Assembly (NCBI GenBank): GCA_944320725.1
Contig: CALUIM010000006.1
Location: 1 to 64,000 of the forward strand
DNA from: an uncultured Coriobacteriaceae bacterium
GTDB lineage: Bacteria; Actinomycetota; Coriobacteriia; Coriobacteriales; Coriobacteriaceae
Reading direction: 5' to 3'
Length of the DNA: 64,000 nucleotides
Shown here: positions 36,240 through 52,772 of the stretch, one piece after another
How the letters are laid out: each line of letters opens with the position of its first letter
Numbering within the stretch: the first letter of the stretch is position 1
Program-made: the position numbers and the translations under genes
Notes under the pieces: generated by a model
Databases searched by the model: none
What the model was told of the DNA's origin: nothing
What the model saw: only the letters and a program-made list of their open reading frames with translations

Positions 36240-38264
36240 CTACCTCACCTCCAAACGGGAAACGAGACCGTTCTTGGCGAGCTCCTCGTCGGGAATCTCC
36301 GAGACGAGGTGATGGTCGGCGCCGGGAACGGGCTTCAGGATGGGATGGACGTCGAGGCCAACCGTAGGATGGCTCGAGCGCGGAGCAAAACGGTCGCCCT
36401 TGGGGAAGTCTGCCGGGCTGGGCACGGAGCCGGGAACCTGGTGCAGACGGGTGCCGTCGTGCGCCTCGATGGAGAGCACGGAGCCAAGCAGGCCCTGCGT
36501 GTACTCGTGGATCGGGTTGGTGAGCAGCTCCTTGGTGGGAGCGGACTCCACAACCTGACCGGCGTACATAACGGTGATCTCGGAGGCAACCTCTGCCACG
36601 AGGGCGAGGTCGTGCGACACGAAGATCATGGCGAAGCCGAGCTTCTTCTGGAGGTCGTTCAAAAGCTTGATAACCTGCTTCTGAACGGTCACGTCGAGCG
36701 CCGTGGTGGGCTCGTCGCAGATGACAAGCGACGGGTTGCGCGTAAGCGCCATAGCGATGATGACGCGCTGGCACTGACCACCGGAGAGCTCATGTGGATA
36801 GCTCTCGAGGGTGCGCTTGGGGTCGAGGCCCACGAGCTCGAGCAGATCCTCGGCGGAGCGGGTGCCGCCGCGGCTGGTGAGCTGCTTCATCTGCGCAGAG
36901 ATGAGCATCGAGGGGTTAAGGGCGGAAAGCGAATCCTGGTAGACCATCGCGATCTCGTGGCCGAGCAGCTTGCGATGCTCTTCCTTCGAAATCTTGAGCA
37001 GGTCCTTGCCCTTGTAGATAACCTCACCAGAAATACGGGCGGTATCAGGCAGGAGGTTCATGATGGTCTTCGTGGTGATGGACTTGCCGCAGCCAGACTC
37101 GCCCACGAGGGCCATGCACTGGCCGGGACGGACGTCGAACGAGACGTTGTCCACCACGTGCACGTCGCCGTGGCGCGGGAAGCCAATGGAGAGGTTCTTG
37201 ACCTGCAGAATAGGCTCCACCGAGTAATCGGGGACACGCCGGTCGGTACGTGCAAGCTCAACGGTACGCAGGGCACCCAGGCGAGAGGCCAAAGACTCAG
37301 CCTGCTCCTTGTAAGCACGGACAGGATCAGCAACCAGCAGGTCGGCCTCACGACGGCTCTCGGCGTCACCATCAGTGGCAACAGGAGCGGACGGAGCGGC
37401 AGCCATAGCGTCGGTCAGACCCTCGGAGAGGATGTTGAGCGCCAAGCAGGTAACCATAATCGCGATGCCCGGGAACAGCGCCTGCCACCAGCGACCGAGG
37501 AGCACGCCGTCGCGAGCGCTCGCGAGGATATTGCCCCATGTGGCGGTGGGCTCAGCGATGCCGGCGCCGATGAAGGTCAGCGAGGCCTCGAAGATGATGG
37601 CGTCTGCAACGAGCGTCACGGTAAAGACCATGATGGGTGCGATGCAGTTGCGCAGCACGTGCTTCATGAGAATCCACGGAGCGCGGGCGCCAGCAACAAT
37701 CACGGCGCGAACGTAGTCTTCACCATACTCGGACACCACGTTGGCACGCACGATGCGCGCAATCTGCGGCGTATACATAAAGCCGATGGAGAAGATAATC
37801 GCCGGAACGGAGTTGCCGAGAATGAGCACGAGAATTGCCGCAAGCGCGATGCCCGGGATCGACATGATGACGTCGAGCACGCGCATGATGACCTCAGAGA
37901 CGGCCTTGCGCGAAACTGCGGCGAGTGCGCCGATAATCGAGCCGAAGACAAGCGCCAGAAGCGTTGCGCCAAAGCCAATAATCAGTGAGTACTGGCCGCC
38001 ATAGAGCATACGCGAAAGGATGTCGCGGCCCTGGTTATCGGTACCAAAGATGAACTCTCCCGAAGGCGGCTGATACGCAGTGTAAATCTTGAGCGGATCA
38101 TGCGGGGCAATAACCGGCGCCAGAATAGCGGAAAGTGCCACAAGCACGAGCAGCACGAGTGAAATCTTGCTCGGCATGCTCATCTTGGAGATACCGCCGA
38201 GCTTCAAGCCCTTAGCAGCAGCGTGCTCAAGCTTGGCGGTCTTTTCTTCACGAATCTTAACCAT
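36240..38264 (-). CDS. fused OppC-type permease and OppD-type ATPase
   Basis: A 674-residue single polypeptide. Residues about 30-290 are an OppC permease (FGTDNQGRDILSRMLYG, EAA segment around VIVAGARAPWILMKHVL). About 55 polar residues form a linker, and about 348-600 are an ATPase with [25 protein letters not shown] and [12 protein letters not shown]. The C-terminal extension keeps FPKGDRFAPRS but has lost every cysteine of the usual C-x6-C-P motif. Permease-ATPase fusions occur in some peptide-family sialic acid importers, as I recall in the corynebacterial Sia system. There is no stop or frameshift between the two halves. Confidence 0.92.
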   Translation of the reverse strand: MVKIREEKTAKLEHAAAKGLKLGGISKMSMPSKISLVLLVLVALSAILAPVIAPHDPLKIYTAYQPPSGEFIFGTDNQGRDILSRMLYGGQYSLIIGFGATLLALVFGSIIGALAAVSRKAVSEVIMRVLDVIMSIPGIALAAILVLILGNSVPAIIFSIGFMYTPQIARIVRANVVSEYGEDYVRAVIVAGARAPWILMKHVLRNCIAPIMVFTVTLVADAIIFEASLTFIGAGIAEPTATWGNILASARDGVLLGRWWQALFPGIAIMVTCLALNILSEGLTDAMAAAPSAPVATDGDAESRREADLLVADPVRAYKEQAESLASRLGALRTVELARTDRRVPDYSVEPILQVKNLSIGFPRHGDVHVVDNVSFDVRPGQCMALVGESGCGKSITTKTIMNLLPDTARISGEVIYKGKDLLKISKEEHRKLLGHEIAMVYQDSLSALNPSMLISAQMKQLTSRGGTRSAEDLLELVGLDPKRTLESYPHELSGGQCQRVIIAMALTRNPSLVICDEPTTALDVTVQKQVIKLLNDLQKKLGFAMIFVSHDLALVAEVASEITVMYAGQVVESAPTKELLTNPIHEYTQGLLGSVLSIEAHDGTRLHQVPGSVPSPADFPKGDRFAPRSSHPTVGLDVHPILKPVPGADHHLVSEIPDEELAKNGLVSRLEVR

Positions 38265-41227: not shown

Positions 41228-43222
41228 TTAGTTATCAGGTGTTACAGAATTGCTATCATGCTCAACTGGCTCAGAGGTGTCCATACCACTTTGTGGACCC
41301 CTCTCCATATTCCACGCACGGAGCGTGTCATACACTGCTTGCGCAACGTGACGCGGCACGCCCTTCACGGCGGCGATGTCATCAACACCTGCTGCACGCA
41401 GGCGCTTCATCGAGCCAAAATGCCGCATGATGGCCTTTTTGCGCGTGGGGCCAACCCCCTCTACTTCGTCGAGCACCGAGGTCGTCATGGCCTTGTCGCG
41501 AAGCTCGCGATGGAACGTGATCGCAAAACGGTGCGCCTCATCGCGCACTTGCTTCATGAGGTAGAGCGACGCCGAGCCCGAAGGGAGCACCACCGGCGTC
41601 TCGTCCCAGGGGACGAAGACCTCCTCATCGGCCTTCGCAAGACCGCACACGGGAATATCGAGGCTCAGATCACCAAGCTGCGTGAGCGCCGCAGTGAGCT
41701 GCGGCTTGCCTCCGTCGACCACCAGCAGATCGGGACGAGAGCCGAACCGCTCGTCGGCCATGCGCTCGGGGGCATAGCGCCTCCCCAGCACTTCCTGCAT
41801 CGAGAGGAAATCGTTTGCCTCACCGGTGACCGTGCGAATCTTGAAGCGCCGATATTGGCTTCGATCTGGCTTGCCGTTGGTGAATACCACCATCGACGCC
41901 ACGGTGAACGCGCCATGGATGGTCGAGATATCGAAGCACTCGATGCGCAGTGGCGGCTCGGGCAGCGCGAGCGCGCTCTCCAGCTGCAACAGCGCCTGGT
42001 TGGTGCGGTCGTCGGCATACCCTGTGCGCATCATGTAGCGCATGAGCGCATGGCGCGCGTTGCGCTCGCTCATCTCGAGCAGACGATGCTTCTCCCCGCG
42101 CTGCGGGCGATGCAGGCGGCACACGCGGCCGCGCTTGGACGTTAGCCACTCCCCTATCACCTGGGCATCGGCCAGATCGCACGCCACATCGACCTCAGCC
42201 GGGATATCCGATGTCTCGTCGTAGTAGCGCTTAATGAAGCCGGCGGCGAGCTCATCCTCCTCGACATCGAGACCCTTATCGAGGATGAACTCGCACGTTC
42301 GCTGGACCACGCCCTCGCGCACCACGAATACGCAGGCGCCCGCGATGGTCTCCTCGCGATAAAACCCCACGACATCGATATCGACGCTCGAGGGAAACAC
42401 CACCTGCTGGCGATCGTCGAGCCCCTGGATGATCTCCAAGCGCTTCTTCACGCGACCGGCACGCTCGAAATCCAGCTCTGCGGCGGCCTCTGCCATCTCG
42501 TGTTTGAGCTCGCCTACCACCTCGGAGCGTTTGCCGGAGAGAAACCGCTCGACGCGGCGCACGTTCTTTGCGTAATCCTCGGGTGAAATCGCGCCAACAC
42601 AGGCACCGGGCCCGCGCCCCACGTGGTAGTCGAAGCAGGGCCTTCCCTTCTCGGCCATGAGGAGCCCGATGATGTCCTCGTCGCCCTTGTGCGCCTCCGC
42701 GAGCCTGCGGCAGCGCTTCCACTCGGCACAGGTCCCGATACAGATGGGAATCACCTTGCGAATGGTGTCGATCGTGGCACGCGCGGCGCGGCTATCGGTA
42801 TAGGGGCCAAAATACCGCGTGCCGGGACGGTGCTTCTCGCGCGTGTACTTGATTGCCGGAAAGAGGTCCGCCTTCGTGATGGCAATGAAGGGATAGCTCT
42901 TGTCGTCTTTGAAGTCGACATTGAAATACGGATGGTACTGGCCAATGAGATTGCGCTCGAGCACCAGCGCCTCGTGCTCGCTCTCCACCACGATGTAGTC
43001 GAAGCTCTGCACGAGCTGCATCATAAGCGGAATCTTCTGGCGCTCATCTTGCAGCGTTACGTACTGGCGCATGCGCGCACGCAGGTTCTTTGCCTTGCCA
43101 ACGTAGATGACCTCGCCGGCGGCATCTTTCCACAGATAGCAACCAGGGCTCTGCGGCACCTGCGTCACCTCTCGGGCGAGGTCGGCAAGATGCGCAGCAA
43201 AGGCAGAATCGGCGGCACTCAC
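41228..43222 (-). CDS. uvrC: excinuclease ABC subunit C
   Basis: A 664-residue nuclease that makes both incisions in nucleotide excision repair. It has an N-terminal GIY-YIG domain (PGCYLWKDAAGEVIYVGKAKNLRARM), a UVR motif (AAAELDFERAGRVKKRLEII), the RNase H-like domain (IECFDISTIHGAFTVASMVVF) and C-terminal helix-hairpin-helix (LDEVEGVGPTRKKAIM). The start is a GTG at 43222 overlapping the murJ stop by three bases. It ends the ATP-grasp-ybaK-murJ-uvrC operon. Confidence 0.96.
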   Translation of the reverse strand: MSAADSAFAAHLADLAREVTQVPQSPGCYLWKDAAGEVIYVGKAKNLRARMRQYVTLQDERQKIPLMMQLVQSFDYIVVESEHEALVLERNLIGQYHPYFNVDFKDDKSYPFIAITKADLFPAIKYTREKHRPGTRYFGPYTDSRAARATIDTIRKVIPICIGTCAEWKRCRRLAEAHKGDEDIIGLLMAEKGRPCFDYHVGRGPGACVGAISPEDYAKNVRRVERFLSGKRSEVVGELKHEMAEAAAELDFERAGRVKKRLEIIQGLDDRQQVVFPSSVDIDVVGFYREETIAGACVFVVREGVVQRTCEFILDKGLDVEEDELAAGFIKRYYDETSDIPAEVDVACDLADAQVIGEWLTSKRGRVCRLHRPQRGEKHRLLEMSERNARHALMRYMMRTGYADDRTNQALLQLESALALPEPPLRIECFDISTIHGAFTVASMVVFTNGKPDRSQYRRFKIRTVTGEANDFLSMQEVLGRRYAPERMADERFGSRPDLLVVDGGKPQLTAALTQLGDLSLDIPVCGLAKADEEVFVPWDETPVVLPSGSASLYLMKQVRDEAHRFAITFHRELRDKAMTTSVLDEVEGVGPTRKKAIMRHFGSMKRLRAAGVDDIAAVKGVPRHVAQAVYDTLRAWNMERGPQSGMDTSEPVEHDSNSVTPDN

Positions 43223-44958
43223 CGTTTCACCTTTCGTGCCAGCGAGGTGAGCATGCCCGCCTCGGGCAGCTTAAGCACGACCGCCGGCGCAAAGGTGACG
43301 ATCAGGGAAACGATGCCCGAGACCGCCACATAGGCAAAGGTCTGGATCATGGGCGCGGTCTGTGCGGTGCCGTTAGCGGCAACAGTTGCCAGCGGCGCAA
43401 TGAACGTCTCGAGCAGCCAGAGCATCCCGCCACCTGCCGCAGCGCCCGCCGCGCCCAGCACCAGGCCCGTCAGCGCCCCGTGCGCAATCGTGCGCACGCG
43501 CAGGCCGCGCAGACGGCGGCGCATCCACACCATCGCGCCCGCATTGGCAACGATGTAGAACACGCACGACGAGAACGCGATGAAGGGCATGCCGCCGCCG
43601 AGCCCCACGCCCAGCCCGAGCGACCATGCCACCTGAGCGATGGCACCAAGCGTCATGAAGACCGCATAGGGCCGCATATCGGCAAGCGCCGAGCAGCCTT
43701 TCTGCATGAGCATGCACACGCCGTAGATGGGCAGCGCCGGCGCGAGGAAGCGCAGATACTCGCTCACCAGCTCCACACCAGCCAGATCGAAGCGACCGGA
43801 GCAGTAGATCATATTGAGCGGCGTGGCAAACACGATGAGATAGAGGGCAAACGGGATGAGGAAAAACAGCTGCTGCGCGATGCCGCGTGACATGCCCTCG
43901 CGCACGGCATCCATCGCACCCGCCGACGCATCGCGCGCCAGCTCGGTGTAAAGCGCCGTGTTGAGCGAGACGGAGAGCAGCGCGTAGGGCAGCGTGTACC
44001 ACAGGCGCGCGTATGCGATCACCGACGCGCCGGATCCCGGCTGTACCGCGAGCGCGGAGGAATTCTGCACCGACGTGGTCACGAGCGTGCACAGCGTCGC
44101 CAAGAGCGTGGGCACGCCCAGCGAGACCGTCTTACGCAGCAGGGGATCAGAGAGATCGATATGCAGCCGCGGATGCACTCCGTGCTTGGCAAGCGCCGGA
44201 ATCTGACACGCCATCTGCACGAACACGCCCGCGGTGGTGCCAACGGCAAGCACCGTGATCGCCAGCTGCTGGCTGATACCCTCAAGCCAGGGAAACGTCG
44301 CAAAGCTTGCGATAACCACGATGTTGTTGAGCACGGGAGCGAAGTTGCTCCAGAAGTAATCGCGATGAGCGTTGAGCACACCGGAAAACACCGAGCCCAA
44401 GCCATAGAAGAGAATCTGGATGGCGAAGAAGCGGAAGAAGTAGATGGCAACGTCCATCTCGCCAGAATCGCCGCTCATGAATGATTGCGTCCAGATGAGG
44501 CCCGGAGCGAACGCGATGGCGAGCACCGATACGACGCCCAGAAGCACGAGCAGCACCGAAAGCAGGTTGCCCACATAGCTGTCGGCGGCATCGCGCCCGC
44601 CTTCCTTGCGGGCCTCCAGATACACCGGCAAAAAGGCCGTGACGAGCATGCCCCCCATCACGAGCTCATAGAGCATATTGGGAAGGTTGTTGGCGATGTT
44701 GTACGACGATGCGAGAACCGAGACGCCGAACGCGATGCCCATGACCCAGGTGCGCATGAAACCGGTCACGCGCGAGACGATGATGAGGCCCGTCATGAGG
44801 CTCGCCGAGCGGCCTACGCTCTCGTAATCGCCGCCTCCGGCAAACTCATCGTCATCGGTTGGCGCAGCGGGCTTCTGCGCGACAGGCTCCGTGCCTGCGG
44901 TACGCTTCTTCACCGCAGGCGCATAATGCGCGCCCCGCATACGTTCCTCATCCGACAT
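43219..44958 (-). CDS. murJ: MurJ/MviN lipid II flippase
   Basis: A 579-residue membrane protein of the MOP superfamily with about 14 helices. After a 50-residue disordered cytoplasmic tail it has the hallmark SLMTGLIIVSRVTGFMRTW and NNLPNMLYELVMGGMLVTAF. It moves lipid-linked peptidoglycan precursor across the membrane. The ATG at 44958 lies inside the end of ybaK (11-base overlap). Its operon includes an ATP-grasp ligase that may modify the same precursor. Confidence 0.93.
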   Translation of the reverse strand: MSDEERMRGAHYAPAVKKRTAGTEPVAQKPAAPTDDDEFAGGGDYESVGRSASLMTGLIIVSRVTGFMRTWVMGIAFGVSVLASSYNIANNLPNMLYELVMGGMLVTAFLPVYLEARKEGGRDAADSYVGNLLSVLLVLLGVVSVLAIAFAPGLIWTQSFMSGDSGEMDVAIYFFRFFAIQILFYGLGSVFSGVLNAHRDYFWSNFAPVLNNIVVIASFATFPWLEGISQQLAITVLAVGTTAGVFVQMACQIPALAKHGVHPRLHIDLSDPLLRKTVSLGVPTLLATLCTLVTTSVQNSSALAVQPGSGASVIAYARLWYTLPYALLSVSLNTALYTELARDASAGAMDAVREGMSRGIAQQLFFLIPFALYLIVFATPLNMIYCSGRFDLAGVELVSEYLRFLAPALPIYGVCMLMQKGCSALADMRPYAVFMTLGAIAQVAWSLGLGVGLGGGMPFIAFSSCVFYIVANAGAMVWMRRRLRGLRVRTIAHGALTGLVLGAAGAAAGGGMLWLLETFIAPLATVAANGTAQTAPMIQTFAYVAVSGIVSLIVTFAPAVVLKLPEAGMLTSLARKVKR

Positions 44959-45451
44959 GGCTGTCCTCCCTCTTGCAGATGTCGGCCATCTGCGCGCCCA
45001 GATGTGCAACGAGCTCGTTAGGGTCGAGCTCGAGCTGCAAGCCGCGCCTGCCGCCCGAAACCATGATGGTATCGAACAACTGGCAGGTCTCATCGATAAT
45101 CACGGGAAGCCGACGCTTCATCCCCACCGGCGAGCAGCCGCCGCGGATATATCCCGTTACGCCCAGCAGATCTTTCACATGCAGCATAGCGAGCGACTTC
45201 TCGTGTGCCGCGCGCGCCGCCGCCTTAAGGTCGAGCTCCTCGGCAACGGGAATACAACACACCACATGTGCGCCCGACGGCGCCACCGTCACCAGCGTTT
45301 TGAACACCTGATCGGCATCCTCACCGAGCTGCTGCGCCACATGCACGCCCGAAAGATCGTGCTCGTCGACCTCGTAGGGAATCGCATGATACGCAATGCC
45401 CGCAACATCGAGCTCGCGCATGGCGTTGGTCTTTTTCACCGCGTTGCCCAT
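44948..45451 (-). CDS. ybaK: Cys-tRNA(Pro)/Cys-tRNA(Cys) deacylase YbaK
   Basis: A 167-residue aminoacyl-tRNA editing protein. VFKTLVTVAPSGAHVVCCIP contains the family lysine. HVKDLLGVTGYIRGGCSPVG matches the G-Y-x-x-G-x-x-S/P-G motif of YbaK, and SGGRRGLQLELDP is the usual late segment. The ATG at 45451 is 16 bases after the ATP-grasp stop. It removes mischarged cysteine from tRNA-Pro. Confidence 0.94.
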   Translation of the reverse strand: MGNAVKKTNAMRELDVAGIAYHAIPYEVDEHDLSGVHVAQQLGEDADQVFKTLVTVAPSGAHVVCCIPVAEELDLKAAARAAHEKSLAMLHVKDLLGVTGYIRGGCSPVGMKRRLPVIIDETCQLFDTIMVSGGRRGLQLELDPNELVAHLGAQMADICKREDSHVG

Positions 45452-45467
45452 CGATGCCTCCGCCGCG

Positions 45468-46733
45468 CTAGGCGTAGTTCTTCGCGCTATCTCCCCATAC
45501 GTACTTCTGGAACTTCGAAATCTGGTGATAGTAGTTCACCGCGGCCCAGAACTTCTGCTCGAGCCCCTCTTCCTTCCAGAAGAGCGGGAACTGCGCACGA
45601 CCATCCTTGAACGCCGCAAGCACATCGTCGCGAAGTGCAGGGTCGGACACGGTCTTTTTCACCACATAGGGTGGCACCGTGGTGTAAACAAACGGCTTAG
45701 TCGCAGGCAGCAGCTCCATCTGCTTGCCCAGCAAGACATCGTCCACCTGAACCTTGGCGAAATTGATGCCCGCCTGCCACACGAAAAAGGAGCTGCGGCC
45801 GGGACGCGTGTTGATCTCGAAGAAGCGATAGGAGCCATCGCGCTCATCAAACTTCACATCGAAGTTCGCCATGCCCGTGTAGCCCACATGCTGCATGAAC
45901 TTGAGTGCATCGTCGAGTACACGCTGGTTGCGCTCGGGAATGATGATCGCGGGATTGCCAATGGCGCCGGGCGCATGGTCCTCCAAGATGACGCGGCCGC
46001 CCACCATGAACACCGGATTGCTATGGGAATCCGTGTACGCCGAGAGGATGCGGATCTGCGTGTCGTCTCCAGGCACGTACTCCTGCACGATAAGCGAGCG
46101 ATCATAGCTCGACGCCTGCAGGTTCTGATAGACCTCAGCGAGCTCGGCGCGATCCCGAATGAGGAAGACCTTCTTCTTGTTCGGAATCTTGGCGTAGTGG
46201 TATGCCGCAGAGTTCGAGGGCTTCGCGATGAGCGGGTAGGCGAATCCACCGTCATCCACCTCGGCCGCGGTATCGGCGCAATCGAGAAAGACCGTCGCGG
46301 GATACGGGATGCCAATCTCGTCGCAAATCTTGTAGAAGTTCTCCTTCTGCGTGATGCGGTCGAGCAGATCGAAGTCGATATAGGGAACGTAGAAACGCTC
46401 TTCAAGCTCGGCTTTGTTGCGCGAGATGATGCGCGCGTAATGATCGCCGCAACCCACGAGGAACGGCACCTTGCCAGCAGCGATAATGCTATCGCCCACC
46501 TCGGCCAAGGTGCGCAGGAACACATCCTCGGTATCGAAGTGCTCCACCACGCGGTAGTCGACGAAACGCGAACGCGCAACAGACTTGATGTCGGCGGAAC
46601 CGATCATGAGCGGGCGCACGCCGTACGCCTCGTGAAAGCAGCGAATATACGCGTATCCGCAGAAGTCAGCCCCTACGATGACAGGCTGGAGCACGCGCGG
46701 CAGATCGCGCTCATCGGGCGGACAAGGTCTCAT
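45468..46733 (-). CDS. ATP-grasp carboxylate-amine ligase, candidate D-aspartate ligase
   Basis: A 421-residue ATP-grasp enzyme. The N-terminal pre-ATP-grasp fold reads VIVGADFCGYAYIRCFHEAYG, very like the opening of the D-aspartate ligase Aslfm of Enterococcus faecium. ATP-binding lysine and strand lie in YPLIAKPSNSAAYH (167-180), VQEYVPGDD supplies the adenine hinge, and FEINTRPGRSS (306-316) holds the metal-binding Glu and Asn. The ATG at 46733 is chosen; longer frames read antisense to the racemase. It heads an operon with ybaK, murJ and uvrC and is divergent from an aspartate racemase. The amine and carboxylate substrates are inferred. Confidence 0.85.
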   Translation of the reverse strand: MRPCPPDERDLPRVLQPVIVGADFCGYAYIRCFHEAYGVRPLMIGSADIKSVARSRFVDYRVVEHFDTEDVFLRTLAEVGDSIIAAGKVPFLVGCGDHYARIISRNKAELEERFYVPYIDFDLLDRITQKENFYKICDEIGIPYPATVFLDCADTAAEVDDGGFAYPLIAKPSNSAAYHYAKIPNKKKVFLIRDRAELAEVYQNLQASSYDRSLIVQEYVPGDDTQIRILSAYTDSHSNPVFMVGGRVILEDHAPGAIGNPAIIIPERNQRVLDDALKFMQHVGYTGMANFDVKFDERDGSYRFFEINTRPGRSSFFVWQAGINFAKVQVDDVLLGKQMELLPATKPFVYTTVPPYVVKKTVSDPALRDDVLAAFKDGRAQFPLFWKEEGLEQKFWAAVNYYHQISKFQKYVWGDSAKNYA

Positions 46734-46847
46734 GCAATCACACCTCTCGACGGCAGGATTGGTAATCGGATGAATCGCGCAGCGGCAACACATGCAGCTG
46801 CTAGTATATCGATGATACGCATCTGCCCTTCGAATGGAGCAATCCGC

Positions 46848-47552
46848 ATGGAAAAACAGATTCTCGGTGTCATTGGCGGCATGGGACCCGAGGCAACGGA
46901 ATACTTCTACGAGCAGGTGATTGAGCACACGCAGGCGTCGTGCGACCAAGATCACCTCGATATGGTCATCCTGTCTGCCGCCTCCATGCCCGACCGCACG
47001 CGCGCCATCGAGACGGGCGAGACGGCGGAGCTGCTCGACGTCATGCGAACCTGCATCAGCCGCCTTGAAGCATGCGGAGCGGCGCAAATCGCCATTCCCT
47101 GCAATACCTCGCATTACTTCTACGATGATATTCAGGCCATGACCTCGATCCCCATCATCCACATGCCGCGCGAGACAGTGCGCGCCTGCGCGAGCGATCC
47201 TGGCGTGCGACGCATTGGAATCATGGGTACCGACGGCACCGTAAACGCCGGTGTCTATGCACGCGAATGCGAGCGCGCGGGCATCGAGCCCATTCACCCC
47301 TCCCCCGAACGCCAACGTGATGTTATGTCGCTCATCTACGACGACATTAAAGCGGGCAAGACGCCGCACATCGCCGCATTCGAGCGTGTGCTCGAGCATT
47401 TCGACAACCTTGGTTGCGATCGCATCATTCTCGCCTGCACCGAGCTCTCGGTGCTTCGGAAGTACCGCACCATGCCCGACACCGTTGTCGATGCCATGGA
47501 TGTGCTCGTACACGAATCGATCGTCCGCTGCGGCGGGACGTACGTAGCGTGA
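46848..47552 (+). CDS. aspartate/glutamate racemase family protein, probable aspartate racemase
   Basis: A 234-residue cofactor-independent racemase. The family start GVIGGMGPEATEYFYEQV is typical of aspartate racemases. The two catalytic cysteines are Cys85 (IPCNTSHYF) and Cys197 (LACTELSVL). Glutamate racemase MurI proteins start differently, so D-aspartate is the more likely product. The ATG at 46848 has GGAGC nine bases before it. The 114-base gap to the divergent ATP-grasp gene must hold both promoters. Confidence 0.9.
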   Translation: MEKQILGVIGGMGPEATEYFYEQVIEHTQASCDQDHLDMVILSAASMPDRTRAIETGETAELLDVMRTCISRLEACGAAQIAIPCNTSHYFYDDIQAMTSIPIIHMPRETVRACASDPGVRRIGIMGTDGTVNAGVYARECERAGIEPIHPSPERQRDVMSLIYDDIKAGKTPHIAAFERVLEHFDNLGCDRIILACTELSVLRKYRTMPDTVVDAMDVLVHESIVRCGGTYVA

Positions 47553-47615
47553 TACGGCCGGGGCCGCACAAGGCGGCCCCTATCACAGCTTCTCTTGTCG
47601 CGGCATCGTATGCTT

Positions 47616-48341
47616 CTAGTTTGTTGGCACAACGTAGAACAGCGAAAGGCTCACCCCAAGCGTCATATCGGGATTGGGGATCTCGACATTTTCCGATGTT
47701 TCCATAATCGATACGGTGTATTCGTTTTCCGCGCCAAATGCTGTGGACGCACCGCTAAAGTTGCCCACGATCGTATCGTCGATGCCGAACGGAGTAAGCG
47801 TTGACGACGTCATGGGCGTCATCCCAAACGCATCGATAACCTGCCCGGCAATACCCTCATATTCCGAACTATCGACGGACGCATGATAGAACGAAAGCGT
47901 AGCGCCATTGGGCACCGTACCGTCGGCGAGCGATTCGAGCGTCTGCTCGGTTGTGCCCTCGTCGAATGTCGGATTCTCCACACTCAAATCGATATAGACA
48001 TGCTCATCGACATCGGTCAGCGGATTATCATCCGGCGTACCCACGAAGGTGAGGTAAAAGAAATCAGGATGCGGATCCTCCTGGTCGATGAAGCCCTCAT
48101 CCTCAACTTCAAAGCCTAGAAGCTCGAGGTCGCCTGCGATCTCCGTAGCAGGACGCTCGTAGAACGCTGTTGCCTGCCAATTTGTCATGGCGGGTGTGGG
48201 CGCTGCCTCTTGCGCCGTCTCCGTCGTCGCCGAACCGGCGGCAGGCGCAGACCCCGTATCTGGCGAGGCTCCTTGGCTACAGCCCGCGAGCAACGCCGCA
48301 GATAGCAGCACAACTGGTGCAAGTGCACGGTTCACGTTCAT
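47616..48341 (-). CDS. lipoprotein of unknown function
   Basis: A 241-residue protein with a signal peptide (ALAPVVLLSAALLAGC) and lipobox LAGC, then a tether rich in A, T, S and E, and an acidic beta-rich domain with repeated 'PDDNPLTDVDEHVYIDLSV'-like strands. It has no cysteine after the lipobox. The ATG at 48341 follows GGAAGGAG. I do not recognise the family; the surface-exposed acidic domain may bind ligand or partner proteins. It is convergent with the racemase. Confidence 0.8.
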   Translation of the reverse strand: MNVNRALAPVVLLSAALLAGCSQGASPDTGSAPAAGSATTETAQEAAPTPAMTNWQATAFYERPATEIAGDLELLGFEVEDEGFIDQEDPHPDFFYLTFVGTPDDNPLTDVDEHVYIDLSVENPTFDEGTTEQTLESLADGTVPNGATLSFYHASVDSSEYEGIAGQVIDAFGMTPMTSSTLTPFGIDDTIVGNFSGASTAFGAENEYTVSIMETSENVEIPNPDMTLGVSLSLFYVVPTN

Positions 48342-48461
48342 ACGGTACTCCTTCCCTGTACAAATAACTCATCCCCCGATGAGATCTCTTCTCATCGTAC
48401 AAGCATATGGGATAGGGGCCCCATAATAAATCGGTCAGCGGAGCAGGTGGGGTGCCGCCGC

Positions 48462-48493
48462 AACAAAACGGCCTCGGGTGATACCCGAGGCCG
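48462..48493 (-). terminator. intrinsic terminator of the NlpC/P60 gene
   Basis: On the minus strand CGGCCTCGGGT and ACCCGAGGCCG pair around a three-base loop, followed by TTTTGTT, about 35 bases after the stop. Confidence 0.92.
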
Positions 48494-48526
48494 CTCATTT
48501 CACGATGTGCTCTAGGCTCTGAGCCG

Positions 48527-49783
48527 CTACAGCTGGCCGGCACCCAAGAACGTAAAGTACTGGAGTCCCGTGGAGCTTGCGCCCACGCCGGGCTTGCGCG
48601 CGCCAAACACGCTGCCACCACCCTCGTAGAACGCGACGTGCCCCGGGAAGAAGCAGACATCGCCCACGCGTAGCTCGCTCTTGCTCGTGGTCCAGTGCGG
48701 CGCATACTTCTGGAAATACGACATCTGGCCCGACGTGGTACGCGGAATCGAGTAACCCAGCTGCTTGTAGCAGTACTGCACCAAACCCGAACAGTCCATC
48801 GCGCCATATGAGGGATCGTTGTAGTGCCCGTACGGCAACCCCTTGAACTGGTAGGCGATGTTGAGCGCGGCGGTGCCCACCGTAGACGCGCCGTTATGAG
48901 ATCCGCCCGACGATGAAGAGCCGCCGGACGAGGAGCTGCCGCCTTGGTTAGAGCTACCTCCCGAGCTACTGGAGTTATTCGAACCGCTGGAGTTGTTGGA
49001 GTTCGAAGAGCCGTTCGAACCAGCATTCGAGCTTGAGCCAGAGCCTGCGTTGGAGTTCGAACCATCGTTCGAACCGGCACTGGAGCTCGAATCCTGGCTG
49101 GCATCGTCCGAAGAATCAGCATTGCCTGAGCTCTCTGCAGCGCCGTCCTCCGCGCCCTGGCCACTCGCCGACTCGAGACCCGCCTGCACCGCAGCATTCG
49201 CCGCCGCCTCGGCCTCAAGCTCGGCACGCACCTGGGCGCTCAGCGACGATACCAGCTCGCTGGCACGCTGCTGGTTATCCGCCTGCTCGGCCAAGCGCTC
49301 CTCGGCATCGTCCATAGCTGCCGACTGCTCCGCCTGCTGGTTCTCGAGCTCGGTCTGCAACGCTTTGACCTCGTCGATGGTGCGAATCTGCGCGTCCGAC
49401 ATCTTGTTGAGATAGAACAACCCCGAAATCAGGTCGTCGAAGCTCTCCGAGCCCAGCAGCACCTTGGTGATGCTCATCCCACCGTCTTTATAGCCCGATG
49501 CGACAAGCTTCGCCAACTCGCCCTGCGAGACGCCCAGCTTCTCCTGGGTCTCCTGAATCTTTTGAACCGTAGCAGAGAGATCGGCGGTAAGCTGCCCAAT
49601 CTCCTCTTGAATACCCTGGTACTCCCGGCCGATCTCCTCCAGCTGCGCACGGGCGGCAGCAAGATCACCCTCGGAAGGGGCGGCGTGGGCGTCGGCGGGT
49701 ACAAGCGAACCCAACACGGCAAGCGCAAGGCCACTCAGGGCAGCCTGACGCGACAGGGGCTGGTTGAAATGATTAAACTGCAT
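48527..49783 (-). CDS. NlpC/P60 peptidoglycan endopeptidase with coiled coil
   Basis: A 418-residue secreted hydrolase. A signal peptide (1-34, ending ADAHA-A) is followed by a coiled coil (about 38-205, interrupted at GYKDGGMSITKVLLGSESF), a low-complexity Ser/Asn/Gly linker (about 210-298) and a C-terminal NlpC/P60 domain. The catalytic cysteine is Cys331 (MDCSGLVQYCY) and histidine His382 (PGHVAFYEG). It should cleave D-Glu-diamino acid bonds in peptidoglycan, with the coiled coil acting as a regulatory domain as in RipA/CwlO-type enzymes. The ATG at 49783 has GGAGGC before it. Confidence 0.93.
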   Translation of the reverse strand: MQFNHFNQPLSRQAALSGLALAVLGSLVPADAHAAPSEGDLAAARAQLEEIGREYQGIQEEIGQLTADLSATVQKIQETQEKLGVSQGELAKLVASGYKDGGMSITKVLLGSESFDDLISGLFYLNKMSDAQIRTIDEVKALQTELENQQAEQSAAMDDAEERLAEQADNQQRASELVSSLSAQVRAELEAEAAANAAVQAGLESASGQGAEDGAAESSGNADSSDDASQDSSSSAGSNDGSNSNAGSGSSSNAGSNGSSNSNNSSGSNNSSSSGGSSNQGGSSSSGGSSSSGGSHNGASTVGTAALNIAYQFKGLPYGHYNDPSYGAMDCSGLVQYCYKQLGYSIPRTTSGQMSYFQKYAPHWTTSKSELRVGDVCFFPGHVAFYEGGGSVFGARKPGVGASSTGLQYFTFLGAGQL

Positions 49784-49898
49784 GACACATGCCTCCGTGT
49801 GCGTTGGAAAGACAACGTACCGGTTCATTGTATCGAGGACAGCACACGGGCACATAATCCCCACCAACCCTTAAGGTTCGCGGGAGCGCCCGCGCGCC

Positions 49899-52772
<2,874 letters not shown>

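Follow-up and report, generated by a model that had tools for sequence, protein, structure and literature searches.

The window, the whole 64,000-nucleotide stretch of DNA analysed here, comes from an uncultured Coriobacteriaceae bacterium with a genome of 2.07 Mb in 20 contigs. It carries an ATP-grasp ligase gene and an aspartate racemase gene in divergent orientation with 114 bp between their start codons (Table 1), and the coordinates and orientation given for this pair in the initial annotation are right. No sigma-70-like match was found in the intergenic region. Downstream of the ligase, ybaK (16 bp away), murJ and uvrC follow on the same strand in close succession, with uvrC overlapping murJ. 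The initial annotation placed murJ in the ligase operon and took it as a sign of function. The gene does lie on the same strand, downstream of the ligase; as functional evidence it was rejected, since the pair is found without murJ in most relatives and the arrangement is kept in near relatives only. As a local feature that stands outside the conserved pair, murJ is weak evidence. An NlpC/P60 wall hydrolase with a PcsB-like coiled coil is encoded near the pair (window 48527–49867, minus strand) and adjoins it in some relatives. Further away, a single open reading frame (window 36240–38264, minus strand) fuses an oligopeptide-transport permease domain with its ABC ATPase domain.

Table 1. Features of the ligase–racemase locus and the MurE-like proteins encoded elsewhere in the genome
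Feature	Position	Strand	Details
UvrC (uvrC), at the end of the run; landmark of the conserved slot in the chromosome	41228–43222	-	65–95% identity in relatives
MurJ lipid II flippase (murJ), local neighbour	43219–44958	-	
YbaK/EbsC-type Cys-tRNA(Pro) deacylase (ybaK), local neighbour	44948–45451	-	TIGR00011 182.6 bits
ATP-grasp ligase, predicted D-aspartate ligase (Aslfm/AslA type), 421 aa	45468–46733	-	motif N308-T-R310-P-G312-R313-S314
Divergent intergenic region, 114 bp between both start codons	46734–46847	.	
Aspartate racemase (PF01177/TIGR00035), 234 aa	46848–47552	+	catalytic Cys85 and Cys197
MurE-like protein (L155)	contig C13, 47837–49237		above TIGR01085 cut-off
MurE-like protein (L156)	contig C1, 66661–68010		above TIGR01085 cut-off

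The racemase belongs to the aspartate racemase family, as the initial annotation had it from Cys85 and Cys197. Both are present and, in an alignment with the solved structure of aspartate racemase 1JFL (E 2.8e-39), match its catalytic cysteine pair, within the motifs PCNT.H and CTE.S. Its score on the aspartate racemase model TIGR00035 is 200.8 bits (cut-off 93.1).

The ligase is an ATP-grasp enzyme that profile searches recognize only through weak generic matches (PF07478, 29.6 bits; PF02786, 27.5 bits). An AlphaFold2 model, built from an alignment without plasmid rows, is confident (pLDDT 94, pTM 0.91) and has the ATP-grasp fold according to its Foldseek and VIA matches; K130, K171, D292, N308, R310 and R313 are invariant. 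The top structural matches are a CPS-like protein followed by structures of PylC from pyrrolysine biosynthesis (Z 25.4, 25.0 and 23.6). PylC ligates the epsilon amine of L-Lys with a D-amino acid and so makes a bond of the kind proposed for the window ligase, although PylC acts on free Lys and a D-ornithine, its identity to the window ligase is about 15%, and a common fold by itself is no proof of function. Lactobacillar homologues (Lactobacillus crispatus, L. curvatus, L. fermentum) are 33–36% identical over about 76% of the query, with E values down to 4e-62. The initial annotation likened the N-terminus of the ligase to Aslfm, the D-aspartate ligase of Enterococcus faecium; our comparison with Aslfm and AslA runs through these homologues, themselves uncharacterised, as the nearest substitute for Aslfm. 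No relative of the ligase was found in viral contigs.

The pairing of ligase and racemase is far above chance. A racemase lies within 1.5 kb of 73 of the 141 ligases read in their genomic context (63 co-oriented, 10 divergent). The two genes are neighbours, in several gene orders, in dozens of genomes of Coriobacteriia, Clostridia and Cellulomonadaceae and in a Lactobacillus relative. Sixty coriobacterial relatives contain 47 full-length ligase homologues, besides weak matches to other ATP-grasp enzymes. In these genomes the racemase adjoins both the window-type ligase, divergently, and a ligase type 34–39% identical to it, co-oriented and usually at another locus. Genome-wide, a racemase is present in every one of the 60 that has either type, while genomes with the remaining ligase types have no racemase or just 26–28% identical matches. 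The pair also occurs in Adlercreutzia and, outside Coriobacteriia, in Clostridia, Peptostreptococcaceae, Tissierella, Cellulomonas, Isoptericola and Phycicoccus, and the ligase is present in 193 of 194 genomes of the Cellulomonas family. In Latilactobacillus curvatus a racemase gene is directly upstream of the ligase gene, and in Lactobacillus crispatus an asnB-type gene takes that place; both arrangements are as expected from the RacD/AslA/AsnH pathway for D-Asp that is published for lactic acid bacteria (PMC4155827).

Phylogenies of the two proteins place the window pair in different company. Both trees come from quick searches and contain several long branches. In the ligase tree, the window sequence groups with the g2 species, the genome matching Olsenella uli VPI D76D-27C (G083) and two g38 genomes, all with a divergent racemase. 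This clade also takes in two relatives that lack the racemase (G048, G063); with 10 rows and a support of 100, it lies within a clade of 44 rows, most of which lack a racemase. In the racemase tree, the window racemase falls within the group that accompanies the other ligase type of Coriobacteriaceae, and the racemase of the O. uli match and its kin forms a separate, distant branch. On the simplest reading, one ligase clade gained racemase neighbours from two lineages, and this would point to a real need for D-Asp. We take the family of the window (f1) to be Coriobacteriaceae and family f5, which includes the O. uli and Atopobium parvulum matches, to be Atopobiaceae; within f1, the ligases of genus g3 members are almost the same as that of a named Collinsella MAG.

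The O. uli match, the nearest relative with a chemically typed wall, carries the closest homologue of the ligase outside the window's family, 68% identical and with a divergent racemase 221 bp away, and the wall of O. uli is reported as A4beta, L-Orn-D-Asp. Its racemase, however, is just 38% identical to that of the window and of another lineage. One exception that stands unexplained is Atopobium parvulum. L-Lys-D-Asp is reported for its wall, and searches of its matching genome (G073) and of four other g33 genomes gave no match to a bridge ligase, an aspartate racemase or FemAB; either another bridge enzyme is at work or the wall record is doubtful. Because the A. parvulum match has neither gene of the pair, the L-Lys-D-Asp chemotype can arise, or be reported, without it. 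In the window's own genome, a PF02388 search found no FemAB, the main alternative bridge enzyme, and a PF01678 search found no DAP epimerase. The two MurE-like proteins have the motifs EDPA and DDPG, not DNPR, which is the MurE motif of DAP enzymes (PMC3829189). Residue 3 is probably Lys or Orn because the DAP epimerase is missing and the MurE motifs are EDPA and DDPG, so that the stem peptide of this organism is probably of a non-DAP type. The initial annotation had also suggested looking for an amidation gene set elsewhere; no AsnB/AsnH-type enzyme was found in the window's genome, where PF00733 gave three weak partial matches only, two of which fall in proteins resembling MnmA and GuaA, respectively.

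In all likelihood, the ligase and the racemase form a D-Asp bridge module. The initial annotation proposed D-Asp addition to peptidoglycan precursors, and this proposal is supported by the recurrence of the pair across phyla, by the L-Orn-D-Asp wall of the O. uli match and by the lack of FemAB and DAP epimerase. We infer the substrates, the acceptor and the wall product as follows. The racemase would convert L-Asp to D-Asp, and the ligase would form an acyl phosphate on one carboxylate of D-Asp (by analogy with Aslfm and AslA, the beta-carboxylate) and couple D-Asp to the amine in the side chain of residue 3, L-Lys or L-Orn, of a cytoplasmic peptidoglycan precursor. The precursor bearing D-Asp would then be flipped, and the D-Asp amine would accept a 4-3 cross-link, giving A4-type peptidoglycan. 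As in Enterococcus faecium (Aslfm) and Lactococcus lactis (AslA) with RacD, an ATP-grasp ligase gene adjoins an aspartate racemase gene, and a D-Asp bridge on a Lys- or Orn-type precursor is predicted here. Unlike those systems, the window pair is actinobacterial, its racemase gene is divergent rather than in the same operon, and its genome yielded no AsnB/AsnH-type amidation gene. Very probably, then, the window pair has a D-Asp role and adds Coriobacteriaceae to the known Aslfm/AslA–RacD kind. A literature search that left most subscription journals outside its reach returned no gene-level work on a D-Asp bridge pathway in Coriobacteriia. The pair would assign genes to a wall chemistry known in this class from chemotaxonomy only. 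Which bridge a wall has matters for the specificity of lysins, for cross-linking by the targets of beta-lactams and for the muropeptides that gut bacteria release.

Residue 314 of the ligase may distinguish D-Asp from D-Glu ligases. The motif N308-x-R310-x-G312-R313, together with column 314, aligns to N-P-R-V-S-R-S of carbamoyl phosphate synthetase, whose arginines in this motif hold the acyl phosphate; by this alignment, residue 314 is placed next to the acyl-phosphate arginines. The window clade has Ser in column 314, as do 59 of 61 ligases with a co-oriented racemase, and every member of two racemase-less groups (28 of 28 and 11 of 11) has Asn there. Among 226 ligases, 100 have Ser with a racemase, 92 Asn without, 16 Ser without and 13 Asn with a racemase, and 5 are others; in this count Cellulomonadaceae were scored by the local region only and both members of tandem ligases as having a racemase. 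Among the exceptions, 15 genomes of the sister subclade of the window (the G048 type; L205, L037 and others of L224–L243) have Ser314 and no racemase anywhere in the genome.

The residue fits the published walls of O. uli and C. flavigena (Ser, D-Asp) and of S. keddieii (Asn, D-Glu) in their matching genomes. A 3,742,776-bp chromosome, which we take to be that of Xylanimonas cellulosilytica, has Ser and Asn ligases in tandem with a racemase, and the wall of this species is L-Lys-D-Asp. The genome matching Cellulomonas flavigena has Ser314 and a racemase, and the C. flavigena wall contains ornithine with a D-Asp bridge; the genome matching Sanguibacter keddieii has Asn314 and no racemase nearby, and the S. 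keddieii wall is L-Lys-Ser-D-Glu. A D-Glu wall, L-Lys-L-Ser-D-Glu, is also published for Jonesia denitrificans (PMC3035236). Nothing usable on cell-wall types was found in the literature for Rubneribacter, Paraeggerthella, Bifidobacterium bohemicum and several Cellulomonas species. The Ser/Asn marker is a hypothesis that is not statistically established, because the link with the racemase comprises four independent phylogenetic contrasts only, all of which agree (p 0.125 in a sign test). We tentatively suggest, as a possibility that falls somewhat short of an even chance, that the family divides into Ser314, racemase-linked D-Asp ligases and Asn314, racemase-less D-Glu bridge ligases, with residue 314 a main determinant. 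Ligase and D-amino acid supply may have been swapped on repeated occasions. The window's lineage would be one such case, as a ligase of a mostly racemase-less clade stands there beside the family's racemase. If this were true, Ser or Asn at one site, with or without a racemase, would predict D-Asp or D-Glu bridges from genomes. In some Isoptericola- or Xylanimonas-like genomes (L345, L347, L360, L363), two tandem ligases, one with Asn and one with Ser, precede a racemase. Several Phycicoccus and Nostocoides genomes (L095, L099, L107, L112, L119) have a Ser314 ligase with an adjacent racemase.

Counting against the D-Asp module are the wider ligase clade that mostly lacks a racemase, the 15 Ser314 genomes of the sister subclade that lack it altogether, the A. 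parvulum match with neither gene, and the score of the racemase on a cysteate racemase model (see below). Because the other branches of the clade are mostly without racemase, the D-Asp assignment rests on the window's own subclade, with its racemase, its Ser314 and the O. uli match, and not on the family alone. The same wider clade speaks for a rival in which the ligase adds D-Glu, supplied by MurI, and the racemase is a retained leftover with another use; A4 walls with D-Glu do occur in genera that bear homologues, S. keddieii among them. However, the window subclade shares Ser314 with D-Asp species whereas the S. keddieii match has Asn, the racemase is retained beside the ligase in two lineages, and the O. 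uli match is an L-Orn-D-Asp organism, so that we regard a D-Glu ligase as improbable. It is very improbable that the ligase works outside peptidoglycan, for example on a small peptide or a modified polymer. ATP-grasp ligases are diverse, and homologues with a racemase occur in Phycicoccus and Nostocoides, which are meso-DAP types, but the distribution tracks A4-type walls where these are published, the ligase is nearly universal in the Cellulomonas family, and no secondary-metabolite genes lie beside it.

Aspartate is a more probable substrate of the racemase than cysteate. The window racemase scores 206.5 bits on NF052483, the CuyB cysteate racemase model (cut-off 190), while passing TIGR00035 as well. 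This model does not discriminate, because ligase-adjacent racemases of Lactobacillus and other Coriobacteria score 180–202 on it (185 for the Lactobacillus racemase beside its ligase), and the CuyB match was set aside on that ground. With racemase presence also following ligase type across genomes, a cysteate racemase that lies next to the ligase incidentally is very improbable. The window pair lies in the stretch between uvrA and uvrC (window 41228–52772), in which different Coriobacteriaceae have bridge ligases of differing subfamilies (L032–L036, L055, L061–L068), as if it were a slot for the exchange of ligase types.
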